Assembly (NCBI GenBank): GCA_030248295.1
Contig: JASANH010001446.1
Location: forward strand, 558,001 to 622,000
Reading direction: 5' to 3'
Length of the DNA: 64,000 nucleotides
Source: Mesodorylaimus sp. YZB2_4
Taxonomy: Eukaryota > Nematoda > Enoplea > Dorylaimida > Dorylaimidae
Shown: positions 419-57,128 of the stretch, piece by piece
Numbering within the stretch: position 1 is the first letter of the stretch
How the letters are laid out: every line of letters starts with the position of its first letter
Program-made: the position numbers and the translations under genes
Notes under the pieces: generated by a model
The model's input: the letters and a program-made list of their open reading frames with translations, nothing else
Told to the model about the DNA's origin: nothing
Database searches by the model: none

Positions 419-1950
419 TTCGTGAAGATTCGGTCATCTGTATGGTTTTGTGGATAAACTACTTGCTCTCGTTGGGTTCCTCTTGCTAAATACCTGGCCA
501 TGAGGATTCTTCAGACGTTTCTCATAAAACACTCTAAAACTGTATTCCCGATTTATTGGGCCCATCAACTGGCAGGTGCTTGTTCTCGTGGCTTTCTATT
601 CGGTACCAAACACCTGTCTTTTTACTGCAAGCTACTCTCTCACCCAGTTCTTCACCCGCATTTCTCTGACATCTGGCTACATGGGCAGGACATGCACATC
701 TTAGGTCACAGGCCGTTATCAAGCACTTGCCATCTAGGGCGAACTATCGATAAATCATTGTATCAGTCGACGGTGTGCACGTTCATTGCAACGTCTTCTC
801 GATCAGACAGGGCTCGGGCTCGTCCGCGTGTCTGTAATCTGTCAGGCTAATGGGGACATACGCATTAGATCCCAGTGTCGCCCTCTGTGGTTGAGAGCAA
901 ACTGTCCATGTTCTTAAGGTTGTATGATAAATTATCGGTCTGATAAATGGAGTTTTATTAGGCGCATGATTAGCACAAGCTCAGCTGCTAAAATATAGGA
1001 TGTAAAAGGCTGATATGATATACTATAGCTAGGCTGGCCTTCTCGGCTCTAAAGCTCAAGAAACCGACAAAGAGCGAGAAAATTGATTAAGAGTCGCATC
1101 TACGTTGGTCGCGGCGCCCTGATCACACAGCTAATATGCTGTAGGCATCTCTTTGCATGCCTTTGAGTTCCACGCACTGGAGCGGACCATATTTTACATG
1201 CAGTCAGTGGGGCCGATTTCCCTCTGCGTGTTGTAACCATCATTCCCGGCGGCCACGAGATCGATATTCTCCCTAGCTGGGAGACGTCAACCCGTCGGGT
1301 TGATGTTTCAGCCGCAGGTATAGTCGAAATGCCTGCAGTCGAGGTACTCGCCAGAGACTTCGGTCTCGAATCTCCCGACACCTGGGCGCGCTGGTATGTT
1401 CTCGACTCGAAACACCTCGAGATGAGGTGCAACTGATGAGGTCAACCTGAGACCAGGGTGGGGTGACCTACTGTGCAGTACTGAGAGTCGCCAGACTGTC
1501 TTCTCTTTTGGCTCCATCTTTCTGTATTGATCCTTTTTGTTTCAAGGTCGCATAACGCGGATCGTTTATAATCTGCTGGATTTTGGTTTAGGTGGCCGGA
1601 TGCTGGTGCTGTACTGTAGCTGTACTATAAAATAACACCTGTTATGTTCAGGCACCGTGGAACAAAATCCTTGGGTGCAGCGCGCATTTGCATTTCTTCC
1701 TGTCGTGGTAAAGGAGACATTGGAAAAGGGTGTTTTTGATGGCATGACGAGACTACCGGGAGGAGAGAAACTTGACACACACTTTACCTTACTGCGCTTG
1801 GATTGGTCACACACTGCTCTGCCTGACATTACACTGTACTGTTCAGTTGCTAGTACACTGACTGGCCAGGTCACGTCAGTGCAGCGTAGTGTCGTGACCG
1901 TGACCATTCGTGTGTTGCTTGTTGTGTCTGCGAGTGCAATCGAAACGAAA
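419..1950. other. Intergenic region without a recognisable gene
   Basis: No reading frame here has recognisable domains or splice structure. Reading frames at 500-850 (+) and 1100-1517 (-) show no family resemblance. A 17-bp perfect palindrome with 8-bp arms lies at 1287-1303, and TACTGTA occurs at 1612. The promoter of the MSP-domain gene must lie at the right end, but I see no clear TATA or initiator element. Confidence 0.4.
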
Positions 1951-2582
1951 ATGAGCGATCTCGTTGGTCAAATCAAGGTAACTCCAGAAGGAACGCTGCT
2001 GTTAAAAAAGAAGGGAATCATCGAAGTGGGCCTAGTAAGTTACGACTATCTTCCTTTTGATCACTTTGCCGCTTTTTCGGCATAATTTACTTACCAGGAA
2101 AATGTGGGCGACAAGCTGCTGACGTACAAGTTGAGGACGACCCGACCAGCCAGCGTCAAGCCAAACAAAGCCTACGGAATCATCAAAGCGAATTCTAAGG
2201 ACAAGTTCAAAGTCAAATTCATGCCCAAGGATGACGAGAAGCCGTTCAGTGATCGCGATCGACTCACCATTCTGCTCGCTACGTTGTCTGACAAGGATAC
2301 GGTAAGTGATTGCTTTTGAGGCCTCGGGTGATCTTGAATTCTGCCCTGGCTTTTGTCATTCACCAATTTTAGAAGCCGGAACACTTTTGGAAATCGCCGG
2401 AAGCGCAGAAACCGCATCGAATTGTGATGAAGCTTTCAACCGATGAGTCACCAGAAAAAAAGAAAGAACCAGAAAAGAAGAAAGAACCGGAAAAGAAGGA
2501 AGCCAAAGAAGAAGAGGAGGCCAGCGAAGAAAGCGAAGGAAGCGGATCAAGCGAAGGAAGCGGAGAAAGCGAATCTGACTGA
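1951..2582 (+). CDS. MSP (major sperm protein) domain protein with acidic/lysine-rich tail
   Basis: Three exons: 1951-2034, 2098-2301 and 2373-2582 (stop TGA 2580-2582), all joined in phase 0 with GTAAGT-type donors and CAG/TAG acceptors; 165 residues. Residues about 9-105 form an MSP/VAP-type immunoglobulin-like domain: an opening VTPEGTLLL strand, the ENVGDKLLTYKLRTT core, the KPNKAYGII segment and a KVKFMP strand. The C-terminal 50 residues are low-complexity KKEPEKKEAKEEEEASEES followed by SEGSGSSEGSG, probably disordered. It lacks the C-terminal transmembrane helix of VAP proteins, so it resembles the small soluble MSP-domain proteins of nematodes rather than an ER tether. The ATG at 1951 is chosen because it directly precedes the conserved domain; the same frame is open upstream to 1657 but without domain similarity. 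A cytoskeletal or sperm role is only family inference. Confidence 0.85.
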
Positions 2583-6613: not shown

Positions 6614-9600
6614 GTGAGCTCAGATAAGGATGGGACTCGTATATATATATACACTAACAATGAGCCCAGGCATTCAAAAAAAGTGCCGCTGATCCATCTA
6701 AACTCGTATCTAATGAAACAGGGGTAGAATTTTCGCTCAGCTCAATAAAATGGCACAACACAAATCTTTGCAGGCAGTGCGCAAATGAAAAATGGGTTAG
6801 ACACAAGACAAGAATCAAAAAATTATGAACTGGACCTACACACTGGGCAGCTCTCCGAAGAAAATTCACGTGATAAACAGTGAAATAAAAAATTTGTGTC
6901 ATTTCCTCTGTCCTATCCATTCGATTTAACCTTCCAGCGCACGAACTACTAATTCTCTACCTTTCTAAATTCGAAAAATCTTAGACATGAACTTGTTGGA
7001 ATTCGCGAGCAAGTCCTCCTCGTAAAACTTGTATAACTTTCTGGGCGCTGGAAGACCAGTGCTAGAACAGGTTGCACCAAAGATTACCAAGAAAACAGGT
7101 TACCCTGTCATCAGTGCCTCACTAGCATTTAGCCTAGCACATTCTCATTAAGAACTCTCCCACAACCTGAAATACCCGAAAATGAGATCCGGTTTCTCAG
7201 TCTGTCCACCCATATGTACAACCGATTACGATCATAATGAATCATTATATACTGTAGACTTACTGTTCCAAAAACATGCCGTCTGGTGTCACCAGATAAG
7301 GCTTACGAATCGAAGTTTTTATCAGATTCAGTTAAATCCGTCTGCTCGCGAACCTGTCTGCCTCCAATCCGGTTTTATGTGACAACCTCTGGCGATAGCG
7401 ATACGGCAATGTAATATATTACAGACCAATGATGCTGTCAATTTTTCAAATACTTTGAAATTCTACACCTAAAAAACCAAGAAGTATGTGAAATTGCTAC
7501 CAGGTGCTGACTAGCAGCGCCTACCTGATTGAATGCACGTCTATCCTTTCTTTCGTGCCCCGTCTCGAGTGTCCACTCGCGACTTGGGCAGTGAGAAGAA
7601 TCTTGGCCGAAGAAAAAGTGAAGTATTTTATTTAAAGATCGTATAAAACGTGCGAGTATCCAAACAGTTTCTCGTCGCAACCTTCGGCCGCAAGTTTTCA
7701 GAGGACGATGCGAGGTCGTTTAGAAAATACCTTTTACTGAATGCCCTCCCACGATTCGTTCACGTTCGTCAATGAGATGCGCATAGCAAAAAAAGCCTTG
7801 GTGCACAATCGCTCCTCACCAATCCCGATATGGTGTTGGCAAAGAAACCCAGTCGTCTGAGAGAAACCCCGACCGAGGGGCATGCCACCTGAAATAGGTA
7901 AAAACATTATAGGACAGTCAAAGTCCGCCGAGGTCGATACGGCGTGTCTCCCCGAAAAGGTCGACACAAATTGCTCCCCCCCCCCCCGCCAAATATCCTT
8001 TTTTGGCCAGCAAGGGTCGCAGAACTCCAAATCACATTCGACTGTAACGCCCGCCTTATTGTACTGACAGTACAACCAAGCAACCAGTTTTTTTGCTAAC
8101 CAAGTTTCGTCTTGATCTTGAGACGAACAAGGTACACAATTGGAACTTTTCGTGTATTGGAGAGGTGCATGAAAGAAATCCATGGCTCCCAGTTCTTTAG
8201 GTAGTTGTAAAGAAATTTACCGAACGCTATCTACAGTAATGTAAGTACATACGCTTGAAGTTTCCTTATTGCACTCGATTCTTGCCAACTAAAGTGCAAT
8301 TTTATTGACCACAAATAGTATATTTCATTTGAGTAAGTAGAGCAAGTAGAGCGTGTTGGCACCGCGCGCCAGCCTCTCGTCATCTTACCAAACTTCTCGC
8401 CCTACTTTGACTAGACTAAAAAAGGAAAACTGTCAGCGAGCAATGAGCAGGTCCTCCGTTGTGTGTATCAGTCCAGCTGTCTCCAATTTTAATCAAAAAA
8501 TGCTGAGAATGTGTAGCATACAAATAAAATGAATGATGTGTCGAAGTGCATTTGCTGGTGTCTGCCTTCAGTGGCGGACATTGATATTGACTAGCCGAAA
8601 CTAGTTTGGTCTCACTTTGCAAGACATACATTTCCCATCTCACATAAAAGCTACCTCTGACAATTGAACAAGAATCCATCTTGTGTAAATAGTGGCCGAG
8701 CCAGGGCAGATTGTCTTCGTGAATAGACTCGATTAATACTAAATGCTGCGCATATTTTTTCTTATTCAAACCTAGTCACCTTGACGGACTGGAAAATATT
8801 TTATCCCAATCGTTTACCTAGGATGTTACCAGCAAAAGTACGATACCGCTCCATGTCATACAGTCTGTTTGACTATGTTCCACACGTTGTACTGTAAATT
8901 TGACATCGTGCTATACAGTTTCTGCTCAATCTATCTAATTCATGAGTTGCCAAAATTCGAGTGAACCCAAAGATTGAAAGGTAAAACCTCAGGTTTCGAC
9001 CATATCGAGATGAGTGGTCCGAGAAAATATATTTTGATGGTTTTCATCAAAAAGGTTTCGGAGGGGTCTTGGGAGTCGGGGTAAGTGGGTCGAGCAAGGA
9101 CCTAGTTCCATTTACTCACCTCCTTCGCTCTTCGCACCATCCGTTATTCGCACAAGATTCGTGTCACGTCAACTCGCATTTTGAGAGACCACATGTCAAT
9201 TCATCCGTGCCCCATCTTTTCAATGCTATGCATTGCGTGTCAAAAGGATTTTTTCAGTAAGCTAACAGTAAATGGATACCTCGCTTTGTCACGTCCTTTG
9301 CATCCCCTGTATTGCAATTACACACGCGTCAGTATAGCCGCACGATCCCAATAGGACCATGTCGATGCGAAAAGTATTTGCTTTACATTGAAAAAGCGTT
9401 TTTGAATAACGTTACGTATGCTGGTCAAAAATAATGTCATTTCCCTTCTTTCCCACCTTCGATTGAGAGTGTGTGTGCGTGGCGTGCTTGTCGAACCATA
9501 AAATTTCAGCGAGCAAGAAAAACTTATTTGGGGCTCAGGGTTGTGATGCCTAGATGTGCATCAGCCAACGTGCCTGTGTTCATGACCATGAGTTTCTTTG

Positions 9601-16687: not shown

Positions 16688-18951
16688 TGGCATGCATACA
16701 TTGTCTGCTCATCTTGTATCACGTGGGTGGAAGGAGAAGATACTAAGAGACCACCCACCTCTTTCGTAGTGGCTCTTCTCCGCCAGGTGGGTTGCGTATG
16801 CCTCAACGGACATGCGACCTTAGAATTCGTTCTTACTGTATCAAGCCAGTCATTACCTTCGATCTTTGCACCATCAGCTTAGCACAAAGCACCACATTGA
16901 AGCTTTATCTTGCACACAATAACAACATGTACTACATTCCTAGCGAAGCATCAGAAATCATGAGCTGACAAAAACCCTCGTGCAATTCAGAGGTCAAATA
17001 GTAAACACTCGCGCAGGTACGAGGTAATATGCCCAAAAAGTGTGCAAGGTGTCAAACATATTACGGACGCCCTTCCACAAGCCTACCACTATCGAGTTTC
17101 TCCAAACATGAAAATCCCAGCTATGTGTGCATGAAAAAGCTGAAAGTCGTATCAAAAAACCTGTAGTACGCTTCAGGCGTATTGAGAGGTGTCCTTTTTC
17201 TTGAACGCATACCTCGTGCCATTTGTGCGATAGCGTACTGGCGGTGTTCTCGGCAGTTGAGGCGGCCGCACGATGTATTTTTTGGAGCTTAAATTAAGAA
17301 CACCCATTCATCATTAGCATGAGTAAAAGTCCAAAGACAATTTTTACGTGTCATCCAACGTGTGATATTCCGATTCAGGATTCCTGCCATTTGCTTGAAC
17401 ACCCCCATTTTGTCGCTCGAAAACACGATGGCCGCTACTGCTGTCAATCCTAACAATGAAACTGTGATTTTGCAAGTGAAACGATGCACACCCCAACGAG
17501 ACAACCTTCCCTCAAAAGGGAGACCCCTCTTTCGAGCTGATATCTGCCCTAGCTGTCAACGAACAAGGCAGGATGGCCCCTCCAACTGCATTTAAACTCT
17601 TTCCACTTTCCAACAAGCGGGCCAAAGCATTCTGACAGTCATACTGTAGCCGACACACCAATCCATTCTTACCTGCTAGGAGGAAATGACCAAGCGTTGC
17701 ACGTGTCCATGTCCACTGATGGATCATCTCGACGACGAGCACGCTCATCACCGCCCAAGCTTGTGCGTTGATCACAGTCCGAGGATTGCGCAGTAGACTG
17801 CCGCCTACCCACGTCTGGTAGCGAAGCGATCGATTTCCTATCTTTTGGTCGTTGAGCTCGACTACGAGCATCAGCGCTTCGAACATGATACGTAGTCGAT
17901 GATAAAGTAACTTGCCGTCCACCACCTACTTTATGAACTTGCAAGTCTAAGAAAAGGAAATCATTTTGAAAACTTTTTGGATTTTTAAAACGCCCACGCA
18001 TCCTAAAAATGATAGGCCTCTCATCTCTTATATAGTACAAGCACAACGGGTACATCAGTCATTTCTTCCGCGTTCGCTCCGGGCCTCTTCGAAGCACATA
18101 CGAACATGTTTATGGACTCATATTGCTTTTTATGCCTGTTTTCCAGCCCCCTCCCTTCACTAGTATTTGCCCGAAATGCTTGGCTCCTTCTACTGATGCT
18201 TACTGAATCACAAGACTGATCCATAGAGCCCGAAGGGCAAGATGAGAGCACAGCTAGCCAACGAGCAGTCAAGCACCAGTGACGAATAGGAGACAGACAG
18301 AAGTGACGGCATGCTATACGTCATGCGCTACGGACTACCCCCTTTGGACAAGCAAAGTCATATCAGTCACATGCCTGCTCTAATGTTGCTCCGCAACCAC
18401 GCAATCAACCATCTATACTTACAAAAGCCGCGACACAGTTGTGACTGCTATTCAAGTGCAATAGCCTTTCAAAAATTGTATCTGTTCGCAAAACAGCTGA
18501 AAAGTTCACCTTCTTCGTTGAATTGACTTAAGGCAGCATTCGTCAGCTGGAAATTACGAGGGCATATCAGCATAGCCGTCGTTTCTGCTCTTAGTTATGT
18601 GTGGGCATCCTGAGTAAACGAGACTAGGACTACATCCAACACACTACGCCTAGATTTGATTGTTCCAAAGCAGCTGCGCTATGTCGTGGGCGGTCGAAGA
18701 GGCGCCGCGACGTCGACGACCGGATTCGTTTTTTACTAATTTTAACGGTTTCATTCTACAGTACGCCTTCTAACTACAATGGTGTCCTGTCCTTGAAGGA
18801 CCGAATTCCATAAAAACTGAACATTCGACATTCTTTGTCTTCTCCTCCTCCCAAGGCAAACCATTTAGACCTTTCACATCCTGATTTGGCATTCATATCT
18901 GAGGTGTCAACTGACGAGGAAACTTTCAAGGTGACGGAGAAAATATGATTT
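16688..18951. other. Region between galactosyltransferase and ARMC9; no gene established
   Basis: Minus-strand frames at 17289-17504, 17512-17925 and 18021-18272 are open for 70-137 codons, but they show no domain, no consistent splice chain and no repeat elsewhere. They could be exons of an unrecognised gene or chance. TAC(A/T)GTA copies lie at 17642 and 18757. Confidence 0.35.
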
Positions 18952-21900
18952 CTATCGAGGCCGAAGCGTAGTCGAACTCAGGGGCGTGCCCTCTGGAGAT
19001 TGGCCCACTCCTAGCAACACTGACATACCATCTGGCCCGGCCACTCCTACTCCCATCTCTCGTTGCTCGGTGTCTTTGCTGTGTCCACCACTCGACGAGG
19101 TGGACATTCGAGATGATAATTTTCTGTTGCTACCATTGGCGCGAGCGGATCGCTGCGGAGGGCGGTGCTGTGAGCCTACAGTATCCACCATCGTAGTACT
19201 CTTCTCGGTCGACTGTCGCACGATCGAGTTGGCCTGCTCATCATTTATGATACTGTCCGCTTCCGATTTGCAATAATGCTTTTTCAACAGCTCGAATCCG
19301 GACAGTGAATGAACGGAGTCCGGTAGCACTGTATCGCCTTCATCCAACTCTGGTTCCAATATGTCCGATAACTGTTCTTGGTTTGGCAGACTCCCGAAAA
19401 CTGTCTCTTCCTAAACAAGGATCAATAGCGAGTGCTCGATACCAAACCAACCTTCGGACCCTTATGTGCTCGGTCAGCATGCAATCCTAGCCATCCCGGG
19501 CTATCGGATTGGATCAGATAGTCAGCGAAAGCCCTACGAATCTATCTACCCACTCAAGACGGTGTATGTCAAGCCTTAGCGAGCGGCTGCTTATACTCAG
19601 GCTCACAGGCATTTTCATATTTATCGAAATTTGAGGGGTGAGAATGGCTTGTGGCAGCAGACCCATCGGTAAACAACAACCCATTCAAATATCATACCTC
19701 ACTGTCTTCATCGCAGTGTTCATCCGCAGTAGACGCGCCTTCTTCATCGGACGGCGGAGGTTGCTTATCAGCCAACTCTAAAAAGAAGTAAAGCACTTTT
19801 TTGACCACAATCATTCATTGTTGTACTCGCAGCCTATGCTCTCGTCTAAGCCGCCCTTTTTGTTAGTCCTCGTCCTTTAGCATGTTTATCAGCTTTATCA
19901 AATCCAACACCATCCATATCCCAAATCCAAACGATTTTCTTACCCTTTCCGTGTCAGACGGACCAAGCGATCGATAAAGCTAACAAGACTCAAAGGACAC
20001 TTACGTACTGTATACAGAATGAAGGGTTCGGGAAAAAGACCTTGTGAAAGGTATCTAGGCAATACGAATGCGTCATAAAACAATAATGCTACACCGAACT
20101 GTTCTGTACCTGCCGCTCTTACCCCGAGTCTCGAAACCTGTGAGATACCGTATATGTACGAACACACTCACAAATTTCGATCTCAGGGACCGAGAAACAG
20201 TCGACATGTCAAGCCATAGTTCGACACCTCGTTCAAAGTTCGAAGGTTTTAGACTCACGGTCAACGTCGTGGGCGGTCAGACTGGCGGCCAGGATGACTC
20301 AGTCGCAGGGTAATAAATCGACCCAAATAAGGAACCCATTTGGAGTCCTTATTACACTCATTTTCAAACTACCATTGCCAATGAACCATTTTCACACACA
20401 GCTTCGTCTAGGCGTTTTAGTAGAAAAAACCAATCACGCGCTCGCTGACGTGAGTAGATGGCAAAAGGCGTCAATGGGACGCACATCCACACAATCTGCT
20501 CAGTCGACTGATGCACGCGAAACCCAACCTCGCTCTGCTGATGGCGACCGGCTGGCGCTAACGTTTTAAGAGCCATCCATGCATGGGCGTTGTGAGTGGG
20601 CGGTAGTCGCAGACGAGGTCAGCCACGCGACCAAATGCGAAACCAGTCAATGCGCTACAGCTGCCACGAAACAGGGGGAGAACTACATGAAAAAACGGCC
20701 AACCAAACGAAAATCGGTTTCGACAAGAACAAAAATTGCTAACGATTTTTCAACGACTGGCTGGGGCCCCTCTGTCGATCCATACGAAGGCTGCCAACAA
20801 TGCATGCATGGCTAGACGGGGCGCCATCTCAGACGCGCCACTCACCCCCTAACCCATCATGCAACCACCTCCCATCATGATCGTTCTTTTTTCATGCTTC
20901 GTGCCTAGGCAACCTAACCTCACGCTCAGCTGACTGTCGCAACGTCTTGCCGGCGCCTCGGCCGCACAATCTCCACTGGGGCCTGCGACGATCGAGACGA
21001 GATACGGTAACCCAACAGGCCCTATTCATCGTCGAGCCCCCATGCCCAAATGAGACACATTCCTGCACACCAGACAACGAGCTGCGACCAGACGCAAATA
21101 AATGCCATTATTGGCTAAAGCCGCTGAAGACTGACGGAAACGCCAAGGTCGCCCTTGACAGACGAGGACAATCTAGTAAATAGTTGATCCTTCTTCACAC
21201 CACCTCGGCCATATCGCCTCAGCCAATGGCTTGCTTTCTGCACTGCGGCGTCAACCCTCCAACCCGACGCCACTTACCCAGACTCCGCCTGCTCGGCTAT
21301 GCCATCGCACGTTCGGCTATTGCTAACATCGCGCGGACCCTTGTATTCGAGTATCACTGCACAGCTGACTGAAAGCCCGAACATGGAAAACCGGGTTTTC
21401 AAACCTACCGAACAGCCAGGAAAATAACGGCAGCCAATTGCACTGTCAACCAGAAGAAACCAGATGCCGCCAAATGATCTATTTGACACACAAGATGGAT
21501 AGCTAGGTAGAAAGATAATACCTACAGTGTGCCTTCCGAAAACTACCGAACTCCCTTCTAAACACCCCATACTTCCAAAATAAAGCAAATGCAATGGTGC
21601 TTCCCTCGAACAATGCAAAATTGCTCATTTCCGAAAACCAACCAAACGCCCCGCACCCTTCTACATACAACTACGTCTCGCCAAGTCTACTTCCCCAATC
21701 CGACACCATGAAGATTCGAGACTCGGGAAAATGCAAAGTCAAACCTCACAAAAGGTGCAATGGTCCCCTCTGCAAGTGCAATGTGGCACACGTGACAGGG
21801 CCAAATACATACTGGAAGGGTCTATACTTGCAGAGTCCAGTGCATAAGCAGAGGACAATATAAGGCAAGTTGCAAATTGCAGAATTGTACCTCAGCCAAG

Positions 21901-32622: not shown

Positions 32623-33161
32623 GTATGGCAGAACCAGACAGAGATCAAGAGAGTCGAGGGCATTTTGCATAATGTGTTGGAACCTGACTTTGGCTGTTAC
32701 TCGTGGGTCAAGGAGATCCAGCCCCCCTATGTTTGGTGTGTAGTGTGATTTGCATATCACCTAATTCGCTGGTCGACCTAGGGATCTCTATTGTGTGTGT
32801 AAGATTTGCTCTTCTGCGCCGGGTCAGGGAATTAGTTATGCCCTACAGTAGTTGCGAGGCTTGCATTGACAGCAGCAGTGAACCCTGAACTGAAAGCACT
32901 GAACACTCATGCTGGTATGGGACACAGGCTGACCAGGCTCCTGAAGTTATCAAACCCTTAGTCCAATAGTTTTAATTAATCATTTCAGAAAAAAACTAAC
33001 GTGCATTTTAGTAGAAAATGCGTTGGAATCAATTCTGCCAAAACCTGGTTCGACTTTCACTAAATACCCTTCATTTCCAAGAAATTTTAAATTTCAAGGT
33101 ACTCAGATGACTTCCATTACCTTACGTTAAAATGCTACACCAATAAATGCACAGCTTCGCC
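32623..33161. other. Left-arm-specific sequence, no gene seen
   Basis: Sequence between the Gypsy-type fragment and the kinase pseudogene with no counterpart in the right arm. It may be the rest of the inserted element. TACAGTA occurs at 32844. Confidence 0.35.
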
Positions 33162-36878: not shown

Positions 36879-37859
36879 CGGATTCCTAGGATATGGCATT
36901 TACGCAGGAGAAAATTTTCGCGGTCTCATACATACTGTACATAGGTATGTTGACAGACACCCGAGCGCACAATGTGACATCGTACATAGTGCGTGGGACT
37001 GTGAGCGAAAGCCGCCTCGGTGCAAGTCCGGGGTGCGTAGATCCATCATATGGCTGGCGCTTTAAATAGCACAAGCGAGGAAAACATTTCGAACATTACC
37101 ATAAAAGGACTACTGTGTGGTGCACCTACTAGATCTCATTGCCTTATCATTGGTAAATACGCGCCCGCCCAGAAGAAAGGGCTTTTGCTCAATGTCTGCT
37201 TCACCTTGGCGGTGGAACATAGCCAAGCCCACAAAATCCGAAGACAGAAAATTCAGTCGTGCAACCAGAACAGTGTCTCAGCCAAAATGTACTACAAGAT
37301 CTCTGTGGCAACGGATTCCTAGCTGACAATGTCGCGATACATCAATGCATTATTTTGTGCCCTAGAAAGAGGATGTCAGGTTGTCAAATGAAGAAATTTG
37401 AAACAAACCACATGGCCAGCTACATTTCAAAACTATCAATACAGTAGGCGCAGTTGAGGGAGAAGACGAGGCTGCTTTGCAGCAGCTGTATCCCACTGAA
37501 TTTTTGAATACGGTTACTTTGACTGGACTTCCACCACGTGGACTCCACTAAAAAAAGGTGCTGTGGTCATGCTAGTTCGTAATCTTTGTCTGGCCTGAGG
37601 TCACTGAAATGGAACACGTCTTCTCGTCATGGACTATCAACGAAGGGAACTGCAAGTCAAGATCATCAGTAGTGCCCATCAGGTCACTGTGCATTATATA
37701 TATCGAATTACTTTCAACACGAAAGACGACGTGAACGTTCCCAATAATCTGTGCCAGACGTTCGACTGAGTAGGGGGCTTTTTGCGTGATCCAATATTTA
37801 CTCGTGGCCAACTTTATGTGGCCTGTTACCGAGTACTGTACAATCCTTTGACTCCATGC

Positions 37860-38304: not shown

Positions 38305-39290
38305 ATATATGGTCGACGTTCAAAGGGACAGTCTGATATGCTTCCAAAAACGCGCTCATGCGCAAGGACCTCGGAAGGTGTGACGATCTGTGGAGCTGTT
38401 GCGACGGAGAGCGAAGATTCAATGTTCACATGGCGGCCCAGGAGAAGCATCGTCGATCTGTGACTTTACGATATGATTCTTCCCCATTTATGCCTTGTTC
38501 GCTTCCCTGTGGCTCACTCTTCGTTTCTGTCGCTGACCAGAGTGGTCATCTGCTTATCTTTGTCCGTAAAAACAACAGTGTAACGAAGCTGCGGCTTGTT
38601 TATACTCAGTCTATTATCGTCGTGCGACCTGAGCAGTCGGTTCTCTAGTCGCTCCCCTCAACTACGCTTCCTCAACGCCGCTCTCGCTACAGAAGCCTCC
38701 TCTACGTGATTGTGGAGCTCCACAACGGGGACCTACTGTACCATGGAAGATGGAGTCCGACAAGAATGCCGTAAGTATGATCGCTGCTTTCCGCAATAGA
38801 TGGGATAAGGGCCCCTGGCGAGAACTTACCCGTTTTCTTCTAGCACACCACGTTAGGGTTAGGGTAACACATGCTTCCCCATGAGAGCTCTGGCAGAAGG
38901 GGTGAATGCGCAAATGGGACTTGACAATTTATTAAATCCAAGATGGGGTTTTCAATCGTTACCGCCCATAATGGTGTCAGGAATAAGGAGTACCGCAGAG
39001 CTTTACACTCGCTTCTTCGCCCTGTAGGTGTTCAAATTGAAAACAGACGTAAAGCCTGAGCAGCTTTTGATCAAAATGGCTGAAGAATTCAAACTTTTTC
39101 TGGCTGATTTGGAGACGTTGAAGTTCGCGGACAAGCCGAGGTACGATCGATACCACAAGCTGTTCAGCTTGATTGGAACCAAGAGCCAGTATCGAGAGGA
39201 AGATCCATACGATTGGGAGGAAGCCTTCCGTTAGCCGCCTGACGACACCAGTCGCGATCGCACGACTACTGATACGTCAAGCGAACTTCC
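38305..39290 (+). pseudogene. TTBK-like kinase pseudogene, right arm
   Basis: Inverted partner of the left-arm kinase C-lobe. Pieces: FKGTV then a TGA stop where an arginine codon is expected, YASKNALMRKDLGRCDDLWS at 38332-38395; YVIVELHNGDL, a 5-base CTGTA addition at 38734-38740, then PWKMESDKNA; and FKLKTDVKPEQLLIKMAEEF with LETLKFADKPRYDRYHKLF at 39028-39234. There is a stop before PPDDTS. N-lobe exons are absent. Dead copy. Confidence 0.75.
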
Positions 39291-40094: not shown

Positions 40095-40637
40095 TTACTG
40101 TTTTTCTGAGCGACCTGAACCAAAATGGTTTAGTAAATGCAGTATACATCTAGCCTCGAAAATAGCACCTGAGGTTATATCTATTAAGAAGACTGGCCGA
40201 CGGCCCACGAACATGGTGATCTCATCGTCATCTAGATGGACATTAGTCCAATGTGCCTGAGCAACGTCCCCAACATCCACGATCATGACTATAGCTGACG
40301 GCTTTGTGAGCCATTGCAGCTTAGCAAGTGCAAGCAAAGGCGTTTGGTTTCTGTTCAGTCAGACAGTCTTTTGGTCATGATTCCTGTCTGCCAGAAAGTG
40401 GCTCCAGGCGAGTCAAGATTTGTTGCACGTACTGTAGGGATTTGTAAAAGCCACATTCCTTCCTATAGTGAGTGCTTTTCTGAGGCTCTAAAAGGTCCCG
40501 CTTCTGACTTCATTCAGATAGGCTTTAGATTAATGGGTGATTTTAATGCAGCATACAAGTACATTCAAATATCTTATATCCCAACACGACCAATGTCAAA
40601 AAGTCACCGATCGGAAGTATATATCAGAGTCATCTAA
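40095..40637. other. Conserved block downstream of p62, right arm
   Basis: Contains two overlapping open frames: plus strand 40314-40637 (counterpart of 31461-31784) and minus strand 40337-40095 (VDVGDVAQAHWTNVHLDDDE). The second is interrupted in the left copy by TGA and TAA, so it is probably not a functional gene. Part of it (about 40100-40165) resembles a third place in the window, about 53034-53095, suggesting an old dispersed repeat. Confidence 0.3.
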
Positions 40638-40697
40638 TCTACCAATCCAGCACGCAAGCGGTCATTGACGCGCCATTGTGTCAGACTTTTCCCCGTC

Positions 40698-42000
40698 TTA
40701 GTGGCTGGGATGCAAATAGTCCAAGACAGCCGATACGTCGCCTTTCATCTGTTTTACCAGTTCCTTTAAGTGGCCGCAGTCGTTTCTGTAACCCATGGCC
40801 AAAAGATAATTCAGAGCCGCCTCGATCTTCGCATCTGAGAAAACACGATTCTAAGTCGAAGCGCCGACAAGAGGATGCTGAAAAGGAGTCTTACCTGAAT
40901 CAGCTGTGCCAGAAGAGGCTCCTTTCTCGGCTGATGGGGCTGTTGCGCGTTCTTCCTTTTTGGGTGTAGCTCCAGAGGTGGCTACAGGAATGCCTAGAAA
41001 AACCCCAGTGATTCGGCGATGAATAGGGTGTAGAGCAGACCAGAGCACTCACTAAATACGTTCAATACAGTTTCGATTGCGCCAGTCAAATTGCTGATCA
41101 TATCGTCATCGATAGGCTGATCGTCCGGCTCACCCTCTGGTTTTGGGGCTTCATTTATCCCCTCGTCCTCCTGAGACTGGCGCCCCACACCCCAGTTACG
41201 ACGGCACCTTTGCCCGTGACAGTGTCCAAATCCAAATCCGTGCCCACCACGGAACAGATTGGGAGCAAAAGCGAATGTTTGCGACGCGACAAAGGCTTGC
41301 TAAAAAAGAGATGTGTCCTTCATGTGCGAGGGATTACGCAATGGTCGGCTTACTGTACCTTCCAGCTTTCGTCTTTTGGTGACGCGATACGGAGCACGGG
41401 ATGCTCGTAGTGCCCAATTTTCTCTATGCACTCGAAGCATAGATCGTAGTCGGGGCAGGTCAAGCATTTGTAACGAATGCCCCGAATGCCTCCTTCGCAT
41501 CCGTCGCATATAACATTGCGATGCAGAGTCGAATCTTCCGGCTTTTCAATCGTGGCCTTTTCTTGATCGGCCTGCTCCTGCCCATCTTTTGCAGGCTGTT
41601 CGTCCATTTTCTCAGCCTTCTTCTCCTGCTGGCCCGACTCGGCCAAAGTTGGTCCCTCAGTCTCCGCGAAGAGATATACACGCAGAGTTTTGTCGTCCGA
41701 GGCCAGATTGGCCAGAGCTTCTTTCAGCTCGGCGTTGCTGGAAATGAGAACGAGTTCACCGTCGTTGTCTGAAAATGACACGAGGCCCATTGAGCTGGAA
41801 CGCACGGGTAGAAAAGTGAGAATGTGTTCTGGCTTACCTTTCCACATGACTCTCAGTTTCGCATTGCCCAAATCAGGGAACAGGTGATTAAGCTTATTCA
41901 TCAGTCTCTGGTATCCGAATCGGCCTTTCTCCTCGCCAGTCTCCAAACGGAAACGGCGGATTTCACTGTTGTGGTAAACTTTGACTGACAACGAAGGCAT
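40698..42000 (-). CDS. SQSTM1: p62/sequestosome-1-like autophagy receptor, right copy
   Basis: Exons 42000-41359, 41299-41053, 40993-40895 and 40834-40698, the same structure and length (374 residues) as the left copy, with all splice sites intact. In exon 1, 14 of 214 residues differ, for example HYNE/HNSE near residue 11, EKLTL/EGPTL, and GHDEH/GHYEH in the ZZ finger. Exon 2 differs at about seven positions and the UBA is identical. Absence of frame breaks suggests that both copies are expressed or that duplication is recent. The D-to-Y change in the ZZ finger follows the conserved H region and could alter ligand binding, but this is inference. The same TACAGTA overlaps the intron 1 donor here, so it predates the duplication. 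Confidence 0.92.
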
Positions 42001-42609: not shown

Positions 42610-42932
42610 TACCCGGGCTGTCGGACCACGACAGTTGTGTAATCGTGAAGATGCTCTTGAAGAAATGCGTGCATATACAGTAAGGCAAGAATTGTTTCAA
42701 ATGTCTGCGGCAGTAACGGAAAGGCTCGATCAAGGGTACTGATGAGTTTGGATTGCAGTCAGTCGGTCGACTTCCGCTTCATGAACTCGGCAGTAATGTT
42801 CTCTGCCTTCTTCTCTGATAGCATGAATTGAACATCAGAGAAGGCCAGAGTAGGGCAAGAAGGAACAACTGATGAATTCGATTCTTCGAACGCATACTCG
42901 GTCCAGTTAAATGTGGCCCCGTTCGTGGTTCT
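42610..42932 (-). pseudogene. Galactosyltransferase exon 1 fragment (3' part)
   Basis: Reverse complement of about 15437-15768 in the intact gene: the minus strand reads ATFNWTEYAFEESNSSVV and SEKKAENITAEFMKRKS as in the gene, then is out of frame. It carries a 5-base CTGTA addition at 42676-42682 relative to the gene (gene reads TTA-TATGC). Homology stops abruptly at 42932, where the 2.3-kb insertion begins, and fades past 42618. Confidence 0.85.
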
Positions 42933-45256: not shown

Positions 45257-45700
45257 CAGTCGAGAGCAATCGGAAAGGCCTATGAGAGATGAAGATAATA
45301 GCGTAAAGGTAAACGAAGAATAATGTCATGAAGAGGACGACTGTTGCTTGGCGCCGTCGCCACAACCTCGTCTAAATTACTGTATACACCAACGTTTTGA
45401 CATCAGAGGATTCACGGTCAGTGGCCGGACCCTGGGATAAAAGAGTAATGTTAGTTGGGCCAATCAGTAGTCTCTGGCCAGGATCTCTTCAATGATAAGG
45501 TGCACGGGCTCCAGCAATCAGTCCAATGCAAGAGTTCAGAAGCTTGGAAATTTCTTCATAGAATTCCTGTGACGCCAGTCATTAGGCGCATCAAGTCAGC
45601 ATTTTCATGATGTCTGTATGACACTTTTATCACTAGGCAGTATCCGGGTGGTGTTGCAAAGACAAAGGAGCCGAGAACCATGTTTATCTAGGTGCAGTAG
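45257..45700 (-). pseudogene. Galactosyltransferase 5' fragment (exon 1 start and upstream DNA)
   Basis: Reverse complement of about 15000-15436: start-codon region, signal-anchor coding (CTCTACGCTATTATCTTC-like) and some 250 bp of upstream DNA. It therefore came from genomic duplication, not retroposition. It has a 5-base CAGTA addition at 45378-45384 (gene TATAATTT, copy TATACAGTAATTT). Together with 42610-42932 it made one copy, now split at the gene's CTCGACTGG/AACCACG point. Confidence 0.85.
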
Positions 45701-48510: not shown

Positions 48511-49751
48511 CTATGGAGCATAAGGCGGAGGTGGTTCCATGTGGCCAGCTGTCATTCGACCAGGAAATGCGAAGCATCCAACAGTGCTAGAGCGATTTGT
48601 CTGAGCGGCTGTATCGCTAGCTCGTCGTCTTGGAACGCTCTGCGATTCTTGGACAGGCAGTGGACGAGTTCCGCTCACGATTTCGCTCATCCGACGACGA
48701 ACCACTTCGACGCGTTGTCTCGTATACGGTGCGCCAACATATTGCAAGAACGGCAGCTGAGTTGGGCCGACGTCGCATCCATCAGGGATCTGATTGCTGA
48801 TATCTTGATGAGCTTCAAATACTAAAGTACAAGCTTCGCCCATTTTCATATAAGATTGAGCCAGAATGTTCATGGCTTTCTTAAAACGTAACATTTTTGC
48901 CGCTTCTTGCTCCAACTTCGTCTCCATGGCTCTTTGCTCGGCTGACTGACGCTCACGAGCGATTTGTTGCAATGTATGTTGCAAAAGACGAACGTCGCCT
49001 CCCTTGCGCCAGCGACAAGCTGCTTGAAGTTCTTTCCTGTAGCAAACAAACGTGTTATAACTAACAGGGATCGAGGCGGTAAATTAGTAGCACGACCATG
49101 TACAGCCGCAAACATGATTGTGGACAAAAACTGATAGGCACTGCACTACTACTGCATGTATGCAGTCCAAAGTCAAATGCGTCGTCTCCCCCTTTCATTA
49201 CCAAAAGAGCGATTAGGTACAGCACATCTAGCCGAAACCCAGGCGACATCGTCTAGCAAGAAATATCGGTATGTTACAATAAGTAACTAATCAAGTCTCT
49301 TGGGTACTGTACTAAAATTGTCGATTAGAGTAGTACACCAGTAAGCAAGCAAACCTGAAGAAAGGACGTACTTGATCTTTTCTTCTTTCTCTCCACAAGC
49401 AACGACACGTTTCTCCGCTTCTTTGACCACCTTGTGAACTTCTCGAATCGAATTGAGTTCTTCGATAGCCGATTGCAACTGAGTTGAGAATCGTGACTGG
49501 GCCTCCGACCACAGCTGTACCAATTCATTCAACTGAAATGCTGCATCTTTAATCGCCCGATTCTCTTCTTTCAATGACCATTTTAATAAAAATTCTGCCG
49601 CTTCACGTTGAATTTGAGCGAAGGAAGAAGCTGCATTTTTCACATCTTTCCATTCTTGCAAGGCGACATTCAAATCGCTCTCGCTTTCGTCCGTCATCAA
49701 GCGAGCAGCACTTCTGCGAATCGACCGACGAGCTTTGTCCATTATGATCAA
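48511..49751 (-). CDS. Coiled-coil, BAR-like protein with C-terminal PPxY motif
   Basis: Two exons, 49751-49372 and 49036-48511, joined in phase 2 (GTACGT donor, CTACAG acceptor); 301 residues from ATG 49751, or 298 from the in-frame ATG at 49742. It is almost entirely helical and charged: SSFAQIQREAAEFLLKWSL, NELVQLWSEAQSRFSTQLQS, HKVVKEAEKRVVACGEKEEK, HTLQQIARERQSAEQRAMET, then a DISNQIPDG turn. This is compatible with a BAR-type membrane-curving domain or another long coiled coil. The proline-rich end contains PPPPYAP, a PPxY motif that binds WW domains of Nedd4-type ubiquitin ligases. The specific family was not recognised; an endosomal role is only suggested. It shares a 460-bp divergent intergenic region with ASPSCR1. 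Confidence 0.65.
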
Positions 49752-50211: not shown

Positions 50212-52930
50212 ATGAGTGGTGTGACAGTAGTCTGTCCAAATAATCGACGCGCAAATATCAAATTCGATGGCGCGGCAAAGACGCTTTATCAGGTACCTAA
50301 TGACATTTTCCGAGTTTCTTCCTGTGTTTGAATGATGTAATGTACATTTTAGATTCTGGACGAGGCGTGTAAGAAGCAAGGCTTTATGACGGAGAAGTAC
50401 GGCCTGAAGTAAGTAATTTTGACCCGCGATTAGCGCTTATAATTAGGCTTATGTAGACTATTGCCCTGTTCGTACTCTGTCCCATTTAGACATCACGGTC
50501 GATTTGTTGATTTATCGGTGACGTTCCGCATGTCTGGATTGCCGCAGAATTGTACGCTGGAGATGGCCGAGCTGGGTCCAGAGCAACAGCAACAGGGAAA
50601 GAACGAAGCAGAAGAAGTTCAAGTAGCCCTTCAATTGCCCGATGGCCGACGAGTGATGAATAATGTTCCTTCCGATGCCACTTTATTAGATGCGTTACTT
50701 GATTTTGAAAAGTTGAAGTAAGCCCGAACCAGCTTTGGATTTTTGACATGACCGCATGGTTTGGTTTTAGTGACATGAAGTTGGTCGAACCCGAAAACGA
50801 TGGGGAAAATATGCAGCCCGTCTGCTTTTACTTGAATAATGAAGTGAGAGTTTGGAAATATGTAAGCGTTTAGGGTCCAGAGATTACACATAATGTGTGT
50901 TTAGTTCATCGGAGCTAAGGCTTTGGGTTCGACGACTTTGAAACAGTTGGGTATCCGGGGACGGGCATTGTTTCGGTAAGGCTGTCGAGGTTTTTCCAAA
51001 ATTCAATGGAAAACGTGAACCAGTTTCTTGGCCCTTAGATATGCGTCACGCCAGGTCGATCCAACTAAAATGCAAGAGATCAATGAGGCTATTGAACGTA
51101 CACGGGCCAAACAACGCAAAATGGAATCCACGTACGAGAAGAAACTTCAAGATAATCTCGAATATGAAAGAGATCAACAACGGCGTCGAGAAGAGGAAGA
51201 AGCTTTGGAGCAGCTACGCCAACAACAAATTGAGTTGATGTCAGTAGCTTCGACGACTGATGACATGCGCGAAACAACACCAGAGATCACTGGGCCGCCG
51301 GCTACGATGCCAAAACATACGTCAACCGATGATCATGGAGAGTCAAGTGCATCTTCTGGAATTTCGAACCGCCAAGCGCGATTAGACGCCTTGCAATCAA
51401 TGCTAGCTATGGTTGATCGATCTATTGTAGAAGGGAGCGAATTGCCGTGGGATCCCTCTCCATCTCGACAGCAGGCGGCTCCGGCTACTTTTGAAAATTT
51501 TAAGGTGAGTCATGCATCTTTTCACGACCTTGTCATTGTGGAGTTTGCATCTCCCGCGTAGATATAGTATAGTCTACGCTATTGTAAAGCTTCCTCCATT
51601 GCACGGCTGCACAATCACGATTTTAAAGTATAATAGTGATAGTGGGGCCGTGCTCGCGGGCTACAGCCAGAGCAGGTGACTTGCAAGTGAGCATTGGTAG
51701 ACCATAATTTTCGGCTAGTGTACTGTACTTTGTCTCGAGGTCGCCCTTGTCTGTAAACAGTCACGTTAGACTGCGATGTGACAATCTTGCTTTGTTTTTG
51801 CAGTTTCCAGAAGAAACCAGAGGAATGGACTTGCGCGCAACTCAGCGTCCAAGCGAAACCCAAGTGAAGCCAATCGAGCCATGCGATCGCCGTTCTGTGG
51901 TGTTCTCCTTGGCTGACGTCGCAGAAGTCACCTCGGATGACTTGCCGCCCGAAGTGTACGACGTTACGGTGAACGACGTGCAATCGATGCTGAGAGATAT
52001 CAAGGATCAGTCGTAAGTCGTTGGTTGGCTGTTCAAATATTTATCATGACTGATGCAAATGGGCTCCAATTTAGGGAAGAGCGAGCTCTATTGCCCGAGT
52101 CCTATATCAGACAAAAAGATTTCGAACGCAAAGTGGAAGCTTGGAAAACTACTGTCCTGCGCATCAGAATGCCCGACCGAACTGTCTTGCAGGGCGTATT
52201 TCGTTCTTTAGAAAACGGTGAGACTTTTCTCTTTTTCTTGTGATACAAGTTAGCTTATCTTTGTTTCAGTATCGGCTGTATATCGATTTGTTGAAGAAAG
52301 TTTGCAAAATCAAATTCCAAATTTTCTTTTGTGTAAGTCTGCCTTAATTTTCTCGGGAGGGCGATCTCTGAATTATTGAAGATTTGTTGCAGGTTTGCCT
52401 CCTAATTTCGTTATCGACAAGCGAGATCATAGTCTGCTGCAAGCTGGTCTCGCCCCACGTGCCACATTGTTGTTTAAGCACAAAGTTCTTGAAGATTCTC
52501 TGGCTGTGGGTATGAATTGGTTGTCCAACGTCTGATAAATAGACGATTTTTGTTTTTTTTAGAAAGCTATCTTTCCAGCAGCTTGATCGACCATTTGAAA
52601 ACTCCTATTGAAGCGGATCGTCTGGCCGAAGAGAGGTATGCTTGGAATGCAGGCGCATGATTGTTGCGTGCTACGGTTTGTGCCTTGCTTTTTAGTCTCG
52701 CTGAGAATACCGCTTTTGTGCCTTTCCGTCCTTCTATAGTAGGCGAGGGTTCACAGCGACAGCCAAATTCGTCCCAGCAATACGGAGGGGCTTCGAGAAG
52801 CGGAGCTCCATCCAGTGACGCGTTGCCAAAATGGATGCAAGGGTCAAAGGGTATGGAGATCTGCGGGCTGTTATCACCCGTTGGTCCTCTTTAATATCTA
52901 GGTAATCTTGCTTTTTTAGGAAAGAAATGA
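50212..52930 (+). CDS. ASPSCR1: ASPSCR1/TUG (tether containing UBX domain)
   Basis: Thirteen exons in consistent phase: 50212-50292, 50353-50408, 50490-50717, 50771-50843, 50905-50975, 51039-51504, 51804-52012, 52075-52217, 52270-52332, 52393-52509, 52563-52635, 52696-52850, 52920-52930; 581 residues. N-terminal ubiquitin-like domains: VVCPNNRRANIKFDG, LDEACKKQGF, HHGRFVDLSVTFRMSGLPQN. A long KR/EQ-rich coiled region follows (TRAKQRKMESTYEKKLQDNL, RRREEEEALEQLRQQQ). The C-terminal UBX domain is TVLRIRMPDRTVLQGVFRSL then LPPNFVIDKRDHSLLQAGLA. The end LPKWMQGSKGKK parallels the KVPKWLKLP end of the human protein. TUG binds p97/VCP hexamers and, in mammals, retains GLUT4 vesicles. The exon 4 donor GTGAGA (50844) was chosen over GTAAGC at 50862 because it keeps spacing with the human protein. 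Confidence 0.93.
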
Positions 52931-53738
52931 TCCTCGCGTTCAAGTCACACAGAAAACGAATTGCGATGTTTGGGTGAATCATATGAAACGTGCGTGCGGT
53001 GTTTGGGTTTCTAAGTTCTTGGAGAACTAATTTCGAGGCTATGTATACTGTGCTTGATACTTTTTCGTTTGGAGTTGTTCAGAGACATAGAAATGTCTGA
53101 AGCTAGGCTTGTCGTGGATGAATGTCTCTCGGATATCAGTCACCATTGCACAAAACGTGGGCGAGCCGTGACCAGCATGCGTATTTCAGTTTGTCCTGGA
53201 GACTAGCCGGGATACTGATTGGCGATTGAAGTTGCCTATAAAATTCGTCCGTGACATCGCAGTCGCCCTGATCTTCATGGTACGCCAACGTGTGCATCAA
53301 GGAACGTGTCGCTATCATCCGTAAGAGTATTTTCTGAGAAAACTCGCAGTCATAACGATAGCGGATCAGTAGGCCATCAGCAACGGCCTACTACTGTATG
53401 TGCTGCAGTCCCCTTGACCGCAGTATGCATTAAATACATCGAGCGCTACGACAAATTCTTGCGGGTAATTCAGGTGGAGCGGTTATGTTTCAATGAAACC
53501 CTTTCCAGCACATCGTATGAGTTTAGCAAAGATCTGCAGACCTGACAATGAGTCGTCATGCATGGCCTTTACCCAATTTGTGTGTCGTACAAGTTCCATC
53601 GGTGCATGGAATTTGTTTGATGATAGCCAGCATTCATAACAAAAGGGGCAATTAAGCGATCAGCATGCTCGTACATGGCAGGGCCCCTCTAGTCACCTTC
53701 GCCTTCGAATATAGAGCAAGCACCAGTACAAGGGACCC
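52931..53738. other. Intergenic region downstream of ASPSCR1
   Basis: Contains at 53034-53095 a stretch resembling 31960-32030 and its mirror near 40100-40165, an old dispersed repeat. TACTGTA occurs at 53392. No coding sequence recognised. Confidence 0.4.
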
Positions 53739-54160: not shown

Positions 54161-54664
54161 AAGGAGTGCATATTTACAAGTGTGATAATGGGCGGAAACG
54201 GCTAATCCTCCAGAGTGGGGATCAGGCAGCCAAAAAACTGGAGCGGATCAGTGGTCGCAGGATTCTATACTCGTTTGGCGCGACCCATTATACAGTACAA
54301 GGTGAATCGAACACTGCAGGACAAGCAGATCCAGCTAGAAACCCCCTAAACCTCCAACCTTACCCACCTAGAGAATCCAGATGGTGGACAGATCTGACAT
54401 CGCTGTCGTCCTTCAGGCTTGCACGAAATGCTCCACTGACATGTCCGACTCTCAGTGACAGAGCTCGCTGCTTTTTGACCCCGTTTGCTCTCATCGTCAG
54501 GTAATCCAAGTGCCCGGCGATTTGATGGTAAGATCCATTGTTGTCATGCGACAGGTAACCGACAAGCGCTCATTAGACAGGCACTTCCGTCTCGACTGAT
54601 ACATATGTACTGTGCGAATAATTTTTGTGTCACTCATTTCGAAGGTCTACATCAAAACTAGGGA

Positions 54665-55092: not shown

Positions 55093-55102
55093 AAACTAGG
55101 GA

Positions 55103-55777
55103 GCATAGCTGGCACCCTATTTGAACGAAAGTCGACAGTCCGGTTTAGCAGGAGAATTATAGTTCCTACAGTTATGCTTGCCGTGGAATCTTATGCTAAA
55201 TCACTTCATACGAAAAACGATTGAAAACAACAAGAATTAACTGCAGGATTCTGTCCGCAATGCTAGAAGAAAGCTGATGCGCATTGGGAAACGTGGTAGA
55301 AAAATAATTCTTGTCGAATATTGAAATTTGAAAATAATACTGATGCGACCGCAGACAGCATGATCAGCTCCACGTTTCAATACAGCATGCGCATGGCACT
55401 GATAACGTTAGCAGGCCCCGTTAATCGACAGCGTGCGATCGAAACCTCATTTAAAGCGCACGCATCTTTGAATTTGACATAAAGTGCTTACTATCTCCAC
55501 TTCTTATACCAACCCTGAATCGATAACATGAGTGCGCGGATATTTATCCCCAGCAGTTCTCGCTGCTCGCGCTGCTCTCTAGTGTTCCACTCCTTTCTCT
55601 CTCTCTCTTGCCTAGCTGCCCACTCACTACTCGGCTATCCTTTTCGCTTCTTCGTGTCACAAAAAAGTTGAAGGGGTGGAACTTCTGGCTTTTGCAATAG
55701 TGGCAGACCTGTTATGCGTTTGCCCAACTGTTGGATTGGGTCGATTCTATCACTTGGCAGGCACGAACGTACGGGCA
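55103..55777. other. Intergenic region upstream of NAA30
   Basis: No coding sequence recognised. A CT-rich stretch (CTTTCTCTCTCTCTCTTGCC) lies near 55593, about 180 bp upstream of the NAA30 start, and may belong to its promoter. Confidence 0.4.
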
Positions 55778-57128
55778 ATGTCGAAGAGTGACCAGTTAGA
55801 AGTCGACGAAACGGGCGCGGCGACGAGCGAGCAATGCGTATCTGAACTGCAGGTAGGCCTATACAGTATGTGATGACAGTGAGTGACCTGAGCAAGCCGA
55901 TCGTGCAACGAATGGCCAACCATGCGTAACTGATACCCACGTATAGTTCTAGGTCATACTGTGGAAATTCTCATGGGTTCAGAGAGGACTCTGGTTCATG
56001 TTGGTTCGCGACTTTCCGTAGACCTGAATGGACCGCAGTTTTTTTAAAATTTTGCCCATGCTTCGTGGGTAGATTGCTGATTGCCTTGTCTAAGTTGGAC
56101 TTTTCGATCGGTTTTTGGACTTTAACCTGTAATCTCTGGCAATTAGGTCATAGCTGTAGTAACTCATACAGTATCGTGAGTTGAGCCATCCTGAGTCAGC
56201 GTTTCCTTGCCTTTTTTAATTTTCAACTAATCTTTCAGAATCTTCGCCTTAGCTCTACAATTTCTAAACCAACTGAAGAGCAAAATACAGTCCTGGATAT
56301 TGTCCCGTACGAGAATGAATTGCAAATGCCCGATATTATGCGCCTTATTACAAAAGATTTGTCCGAGCCGTATTCCATCTATACTTATCGATATTTTATC
56401 CACAATTGGCCAGAGCTGTGTTTTCTAGTATGTTTATTGCCCTTGGTCTTATATTAGTTGCTTATCAGTTTTTCCTCAAAGTAGGGCAAGAGAGTTTATT
56501 GGCCGACGGATAATGTCGACGAATCAGCCAGCGAATACGTCGGCGCGATCATTTGCAAGTTGGCCATGCATCCGAAGGGTACTCGGAGAGGATACATCGC
56601 TATGCTAGCCGTAGACGAACGATGGCGAAGGTTGAAAATAGGTAAGGCATATAGTTCCGTAGTATTTGAGTCTGATGCTTCGAGGATAGAGCACTTGCTT
56701 TTTGCTTGGTTCTGAGCGAACCAACTGAGGGATCTATCTGCCAGTAGCAGTCAAATTCTGAAAGCCCTATTTTGCTGAGTGTTGAACAAGGGGTTCCCTA
56801 TGAAAATTGACCAGTTATTTCACATCTTACTTTTCGTTTTATTTTTGGGTACTCAGGAACACGACTCGTTTCACGCGCCATCGATTCGATGCTCGAAAAA
56901 GGCTGCGATGAAGTAATGTATCTTACTTCTGACTTATGTTTACCTGTTTCATGCATTTCGTTCCAGGTGGTTTTGGAAACAGAGGTAACCAATCATTCTG
57001 CGTTACGATTGTATGAGAATTTGGGCTTCTCACGGGACAAGCGGCTGTTTCGCTATTATCTGAACGGTGTGGACGCATTCCGGTTAAAACTCTGGCTACG
57101 CCCTCCTCACGCCGTCGATTATTTCTGA
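55778..57128 (+). CDS. NAA30: NAA30, catalytic subunit of NatC N-terminal acetyltransferase
   Basis: Five exons: 55778-55852, 56239-56427, 56485-56641, 56857-56912, 56967-57128; 212 residues. A GNAT acetyltransferase collinear with human NAA30/yeast Mak3: [65 protein letters not shown] (acetyl-CoA-binding R/QxxGxG/A region), [40 protein letters not shown] and AFRLKLWLR. NatC acetylates the N-terminal methionine of proteins starting Met-hydrophobic (ML, MI, MF) on ribosomes. Exon 3 adds a longer loop ([17 protein letters not shown]) than the human enzyme. The ATG at 55778 is chosen as the start; the frame is also open upstream to 55676 but without similarity. It stands only 323 bp before the UBR-type ligase. 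Confidence 0.94.

Follow-up and report, generated by a model that had tools for sequence, protein, structure and literature searches.

TAC(A/T)GTA heptamers as probable excision scars of Tc1-like transposons in the genome of the nematode Mesodorylaimus sp. YZB2_4

A stretch of 64,000 bp from the dorylaimid nematode Mesodorylaimus sp. YZB2_4 (assembly GCA_030248295.1, contig JASANH010001446.1, positions 558,001 to 622,000; the window hereafter) is scattered with the heptamer TACWGTA, where W is A or T. Is this word the scar left at TA by the excision of Tc1-like DNA transposons with CAG ends, as the original prediction from the sequence of the window proposed, or does it have another source? 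The excess of the word, five-base insertions at TA and the presence of donor elements back the proposal, and three tests beyond those suggested at that time concur: the target flanks, the independence of the middle base in tandem copies, and ageing by transitions. By the counts given below, about 82–86% of the TACWGTA copies are very probably excision scars of Tc1-like cut-and-paste transposons, made in the germline and decaying since.

The exact-match count in the window was 31, consisting of 15 TACAGTA and 16 TACTGTA. A first-order Markov (dinucleotide) model expects 4.6 copies (Poisson p ~5 × 10−16), fewer than the roughly eight that had been supposed to occur at random. TACWGTA is the commonest of the TANNNTA words in the window, and the runner-up has 15 copies. 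A maximal-order model, which draws on the hexamers of the word itself, expects 20. The whole assembly of 145.1 Mb in 1,067 contigs, which is covered by all counts called genome-wide, contains 67,261 copies, corresponding to 29.7 per 64 kb or one per 2.16 kb; the density of the window is therefore average. The matched control TACSGTA, in which the middle base is C or G, was found 10,177 times genome-wide (TACWGTA is 6.6-fold higher), and the reversed control word ATGWCAT 27,734 times, which makes the excess over matched heptamers large. In ~207 kb of sampled sequence, TACAGTA (106 copies against 13.9 expected) is second among all heptamers by enrichment, behind a run of C. The chance baseline, from the order-1 model and from TACSGTA scaled for base composition, is 9,400–11,800 copies, and the genome-wide surplus over both estimates is 55,000–58,000. 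For the counts from sampled loci, overlapping or duplicate loci and 12-mer baits were removed, masked or skipped; the site totals range from 106 to 119 because duplicate loci and bait sites were dropped differently. The scar word is also held by a satellite-like array at G000:C1:917429-917708, which has seven copies of ATATACAGTATAT spaced by 29–62 bp (43 bp in three of six intervals).

Five-base insertions at TA were recognized among paralogous copies. The TACAGTA at 42676..42682 is a clean +5 bp at TA relative to the galactosyltransferase gene near 15694 (self-alignment of the window, 87.7% identity), and the TACTGTA at 45378..45384 is +5 bp at TA relative to the gene near 15310 (72% identity). 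Both had been read as scars in pseudogenes, and both readings were borne out. The kinase pseudogenes had been described as carrying one or two tandem units where the open frame joins without them. The tandem of TACAGTA units at 33777..33783 and 33782..33788 is indeed +5 bp relative to the single unit (TACTGTA) at 38734..38740 in an alignment of 88.4% identity, with the first unit common to both copies and the second being the clean addition. The open frame is compatible with the absence of any unit (CCATGGTACCCC), but a run of C makes that alignment ambiguous.

The indel counts draw on alignments no shorter than 100 bp and no less than 70% identical in which either flank matches at 10 or more of 12 positions, a flank filter which the 45378 site fails. 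The aligned sampled loci gave 276 grouped clean insertions, tallied per locus, among which one old event in several copies may recur. Eight distinct insertions are clean and 5 bp long: four of these read CWGTA and lie at a TA (L024:1200 and L024:1202 are two registers of one event), and the other four do not match this pattern. CWGTA is present at L018:2070 and L024:1200, and the eight remaining aligned copies of the repeat (nine in total) are without the five bases; the change in L018 and L024 is thus an insertion. A +5 at TA against an unscarred copy was found at 42676, 33782, L018:2070, and L024:1200, and at lower identity at 45378, and, as had been predicted, the +5 indels of paralogues and repeats lie at TA. 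Stop-to-stop frames of at least 100 amino acids contain 46/118 scars and 250/679 other TANNNTA, and those of at least 150 amino acids contain 11/118 and 71/679, respectively.

The genome contains Tc1-like elements that have CAG ends and TA on both sides. A genome search with the DDE_3 profile gave at least 126 matches (150 of 222 candidates scored). Ten of these loci were examined: three are CAG-ended (L057, L058, and L066), three are CAC-ended, and four (L059, L060, L062, and L065) are without a clear CAG or CAC pair. L060 contains an incomplete member of the L057 family, which has few copies, mainly partial. L057 is 1,710 bp long with CAG ends, 39-bp perfect inverted repeats and a TA duplication, and L058 is 1,372 bp long with CAG-ended inverted repeats and a TA duplication. 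L066 has CAG at one end and CAA at the other, a longer imperfect terminal inverted repeat, and a TA duplication. The three bases of the scar are the terminal bases of these resident elements (CAG; CAA at one L066 end). Both HTH_Tnp_Tc3_2 and DDE_3 were above the cut-off in the frames of all three CAG-ended elements, 34 residues lie from the second D to E (DD34E, counted by eye), and the L058 protein matches the Sleeping Beauty (SB) transposase with the e-value 5.9 × 10−49. The predicted proteins of L057, L058, and L066 are Tc1-like transposases. The SB subgroup proper has long inverted repeat/direct repeat ends with two transposase sites each.

A TA-bounded inverted-repeat search gave no CAG-ended element in the window or in the rest of the sample, the loci picked by transposase excepted, in agreement with the claim that no intact element lies in the window. 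The element-end pattern TACAGT-N6-CAAAA (TACAGTNNNNNNCAAAA) has 453 occurrences genome-wide, compared with 200 of the reversed word, which corresponds to ~127 elements, a rough figure as scars inflate TACAGT and other or decayed ends escape the pattern. The original prediction spoke of one family cut out very often. A single family is too narrow a reading, as three different Tc1-like elements with CAG ends were present among ten loci.

L061, L063, and L064 belong to another Tc1-like family, which ends in CAC (CACTACGTTCCAAAAGTC) and has a TA duplication; L063 is placed here by an offset match only. No strong scar class was seen for this family in the sampled sequence, where TACACTA has just 25 copies against 15 expected. 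TACATA/TATGTA, shaped like a +4 Tc1 scar, occurs 126 times against 70 expected (1.8-fold) in a 238-kb sample. Its flanks are weakly biased, and the TACATA type is absent from all 14 grouped insertions of 4 bp.

The sequences beside the scars show the Tc1-type palindromic target preference. At 119 sites compared with plain TA, A is depleted at +1, purines are raised at +2, and T is raised at +3 (chi-square 31.6, 13.7, and 19.3, 3 degrees of freedom); positions +4 to +8 give chi-square values of 1.0 to 6.1. Genome-wide, the word with ANN_NNT flanks (ANNTACWGTANNT) was found 10,761 times and that with TNN_NNA flanks (TNNTACWGTANNA) 2,700 times, a ratio of 3.99. For the same A..T and T..A flanks, plain TA gave 867 and 869 (ratio 1.0), the reversed control word 3,015 and 1,642 (ratio 1.84), and other TANNNTA in the sample, with scars subtracted, 65 and 43. 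A palindromic AT-rich target ATATATAT is reported for ZB, with SB and Bari called similar (PMC7913693), and the A...T arrangement of the scar flanks is that of the ZB target. The flanks of the decayed form TATAGTA are similar to those of the scar word (n = 26), and for TACAATA similar flanks are not clearly retained (n = 45).

Doubled scars are informative about the middle base. The tandem 12-mer TACWGTACWGTA was found 1,636 times genome-wide, ~2.6 times the 626 expected from independent placement. The two units have the same W in 866 cases (53%) and are mixed in 770 (47%), and in the tandem control from the reversed word 1,499 of 1,539 are the same (97%). This difference indicates that doubled scars are separate events and not products of slippage. 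A near 1:1 ratio of same to mixed would be the outcome of separate excisions, each freely resolving an A-A mismatch. The L057 element sits in the target TACAG-TA-CAGTA and was apparently inserted in a doubled scar. The reversed control ATGACATGACAT, with 1,499 copies on the two strands against 40 of the mixed forms, is probably a tandem repeat family.

The scars also carry signs of age. Single-transition neighbours of TACWGTA number 246 against 137 expected (1.80-fold) in the sampled sequence, and transversion neighbours 333 against 281 (1.18-fold). In a ranking of 16,362 heptamers that lists both strands, the word stands at ~30 by transition enrichment and at ~126 by transition/transversion ratio. 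The middle base is identical in all five homologous scar pairs with both copies intact, one pair possibly representing a repeat edge. The enrichment of transition-decayed forms, together with the same W in homologous pairs, indicates that the scars are inherited and decaying. With constant formation and mutational loss over seven bases, the repeat family with its 570 substitutions should carry 1.5 scars at the density seen, and two were observed, a consistency check on small numbers by which constancy of the rate is not proven; accumulation may have been steady rather than burst-like.

The formation of such a scar can be envisaged from the donor ends, which would read TA-CAG...CTG-TA. The transposase would nick three bases inside each element end, and TA with a 3-base tail would stay on each flank after excision. 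The two tails would pair save for the middle A-A and be ligated, and the mismatch would be resolved to A or T, with a net result of +5 bp at TA. Such scars would be formed in the germline, fixed singly over a long time, and eroded by point mutation. SB and mariner transposases are described as nicking three bases inside the element, which leaves 3-base 3′ overhangs and, through end joining, the footprint (PMC7827188). Overhangs of three bases combined with CAG ends would thus give TACAGTA or TACTGTA, as in the laboratory systems.

Other sources of the word have to be weighed against the Tc1-like scars. The pogo/Tigger and mariner groups also use TA, some of them with CAG ends, and the scars might mainly come from excisions of such groups. 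This origin is unlikely, as the three CAG-ended elements found are Tc1-like, although no search was aimed at pogo/Tigger or mariner, and the 3-nt outcome agrees with SB in both the footprint literature and the L058 transposase match. The heptamers might instead be ends of resident elements or of miniature derivatives still in place, since the L066 family, with ends TACAGTAGTGG, shows that an end can yield a TACWGTA match. However, no 8-base flank was seen more than twice among 119 sites, and this diversity, the inverted-repeat search without CAG-ended elements outside the transposase-picked loci of the sample, and the scarcity of the end pattern (453 against 200) reject element ends as the source and make it extremely improbable. 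An origin mainly by chance, from base composition or through slippage of tandem CAGTA units has a practically negligible probability. Chance does account for the baseline of 9,400–11,800 copies, tandem copies occur, and the slight surplus of same-W tandems (866 against 770, p 0.02) could reflect duplication, but the 6.6-fold contrast with TACSGTA refutes this explanation, as does the tandem ratio, slippage predicting the near-uniform W of the control instead of the 53% seen.

A regulatory or structural motif under selection deserves consideration as in Caenorhabditis elegans TACWGTA lies at most 9 bp from the motif R12-5 in 20 of 42 motif pairs described in PMC3575287; the C. elegans TACWGTA beside this promoter motif pair might itself derive from transposons. 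In the sample, a core like 12-5 or 12-0 lies within 16 bp of 5/147 sites, a count in which baits were kept unmasked, against 9/829 of all TANNNTA, sites included. Only ~3% of the sites have such a core, and a binding site predicts neither clean 5-bp indels at TA, nor free W in tandems, nor an enrichment of transition-decayed forms; a regulatory motif as the main cause is rejected on these grounds and retains very little probability. Similarly improbable is that the scars arise anew in the soma of each generation, with the elements kept in the germline and the assembly representing excised somatic DNA. Tc1 empty sites in C. elegans are described as mainly somatic and made via end joining (PMC13148408), and the assembly has few elements. 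If W were redrawn in each generation, however, identity in five of five homologous pairs would be expected in 1 of 32 cases, and the enriched decayed forms and the scars held at about the predicted rate by diverged repeat copies likewise reject a purely somatic origin.

Several observations weigh against the reading of TACWGTA as Tc1-like excision scars. The excess over the reversed word is only 2.4-fold, a weaker contrast than that with TACSGTA. About 14–18% of the copies are expected from chance alone, so the reading of the heptamers as scars holds for most copies and not for all; some are chance, element ends such as those of L066, or satellite (C1:917429-917708). The flank bias is partly general, as the ratio of the reversed word and the counts of other TANNNTA indicate, the scar word reaching about twice the control. 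Position +1 lacks A yet shows no preference for T, unlike the target published for ZB. The tandem total is near that of the reversed control, which leaves the ratio of same to mixed W as the informative part, and the mixed kinds are unevenly represented (16 TACAGTACTGTA against 8 TACTGTACAGTA by hand count in the first 50 places listed). Individually demonstrated +5 scars number only four or five, and the remaining support is statistical. Comparisons within this one genome gave no locus for which the empty, the filled, and the scarred state were all seen. In frames of at least 200 amino acids, scars show no clear deficit relative to other TANNNTA (4/118 against 38/679, raw counts). Resident elements are scarce relative to the scars.

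The scars also bear on the repair of transposase breaks. A number of clean, inherited scars in the tens of thousands suggests that clean end joining was often used in the germline, although messy or templated repairs give no countable word. It is conceivable, and proposed here tentatively, that clean non-homologous end joining is the main way in which the germline closes these breaks, in place of recopying the element from sister or homologue. If so, each end-joined hop would leave a 5-bp scar and gain no copy, and Tc1-like elements would stay rare as scars accumulate; the choice of repair would then act as a brake on transposons, and the genome would retain a readable tally of past jumps. The scar type is already known; what is new is its abundance and the end joining in the germline that this abundance implies. 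No report of genome-wide TACWGTA scar accumulation was found among the literature matches listed, which does not prove that none exists.

The remaining sites of the window are putative scars identified by exact match. Of the coordinates given in the original prediction, 29 of 30 are exact; the site placed at 36934 is at 36933..36939, and one at 16834..16840 had been overlooked. Along with these two, TACTGTA is found at 1612..1618, 7250..7256, 8890..8896, 17642..17648, 20006..20012, 37834..37840, 49305..49311, 51721..51727, and 53392..53398. TACAGTA is found at 8232..8238, 18757..18763, 19177..19183, 32844..32850, 37440..37446, 54291..54297, 55862..55868, and 56167..56173. The TACAGTA at 33240..33246 has TATCAGTA as its counterpart in the paralogue.

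An inverted duplication (29565-32125 / 40001-42562, 95.4% identity) bears a p62/sequestosome-like gene with PB1 and ZZ domains. Both arms retain two intact TACWGTA: TACAGTA at 30770..30776, where the p62-like frame ends, has the same W as the inverted TACTGTA at 41351..41357, and TACAGTA at 31692..31698 the same W as the inverted TACTGTA at 40430..40436. The duplicate copy has one additional T within the TACTGTA at 31568..31574, and AACAGTA in place of the TACAGTA at 32026..32032. Just beyond the duplication, 32122-32622 holds a retroelement-like fragment with an Integrase_H2C2 zinc-binding domain frame. The segment 33831-34073 is a dispersed repeat with at least 38 copies elsewhere in the genome at 86–92% identity; 40 of 228 candidates were scored, and two of those 40 belong to the window itself. 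Twenty-eight loci have a 292-bp core in common, and nine copies reach 610–846 bp. A gene with an MSP domain was found in the protein domain search, and neither the Rfam nor the tRNA scan of the window gave a match. An SL1 RNA search likewise gave none, with its control silent too.

Cut-and-paste transposons are usually tallied by their remaining copies. Here their departures are countable, with ~55,000 scars against ~127 resident CAG-ended elements (one terminal pattern). The scar record would serve as a natural clock of germline excision, and genome comparison would make germline end joining testable against homologous repair. The +5 insertions at TA are a visible share of the small indels in this genome (four of eight distinct clean 5-bp insertions). 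For annotators and motif finders, an over-represented palindrome such as TACWGTA can be a scar.

The typical SB footprint is given as TAC(A/T)GTA (PMC3432063, PMC4378557), and an SB excision assay employs a TACWGTA probe (PMC10138897). The scars here are like this footprint in the seven bases, the +5 at TA, and both middle bases; the footprint belongs to a laboratory system in mammalian cells, whereas the scars are natural, inherited, and present at ~1 per 2.2 kb. The mouse genome has 2.7 Gb. At this size, the over 300,000 TACWGTA reported for mouse (PMC4378557) correspond to ~1 per 9 kb, and the density here is ~4 times as high.

Tc1 of C. elegans shares with the scars here a Tc1-like transposase, the TA target, and the cut-and-paste mode. 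Its somatic scar is typically +4 (78%), and its germline breaks are described as mostly repaired by homologous recombination restoring the element, with polymerase-theta joining rare (PMC13148408). In contrast, the scars here are +5 and retained in the germline. The Mariner/Stowaway excisions of rice are likewise a genome-wide record in which footprints retain element bases; 8 of 94 excisions are reported as perfect and the rest have deletions or new sequence (PMC4423477, PMC4561436). In Mesodorylaimus, the clean, uniform scar is the countable part, and messy outcomes are invisible to a heptamer count.

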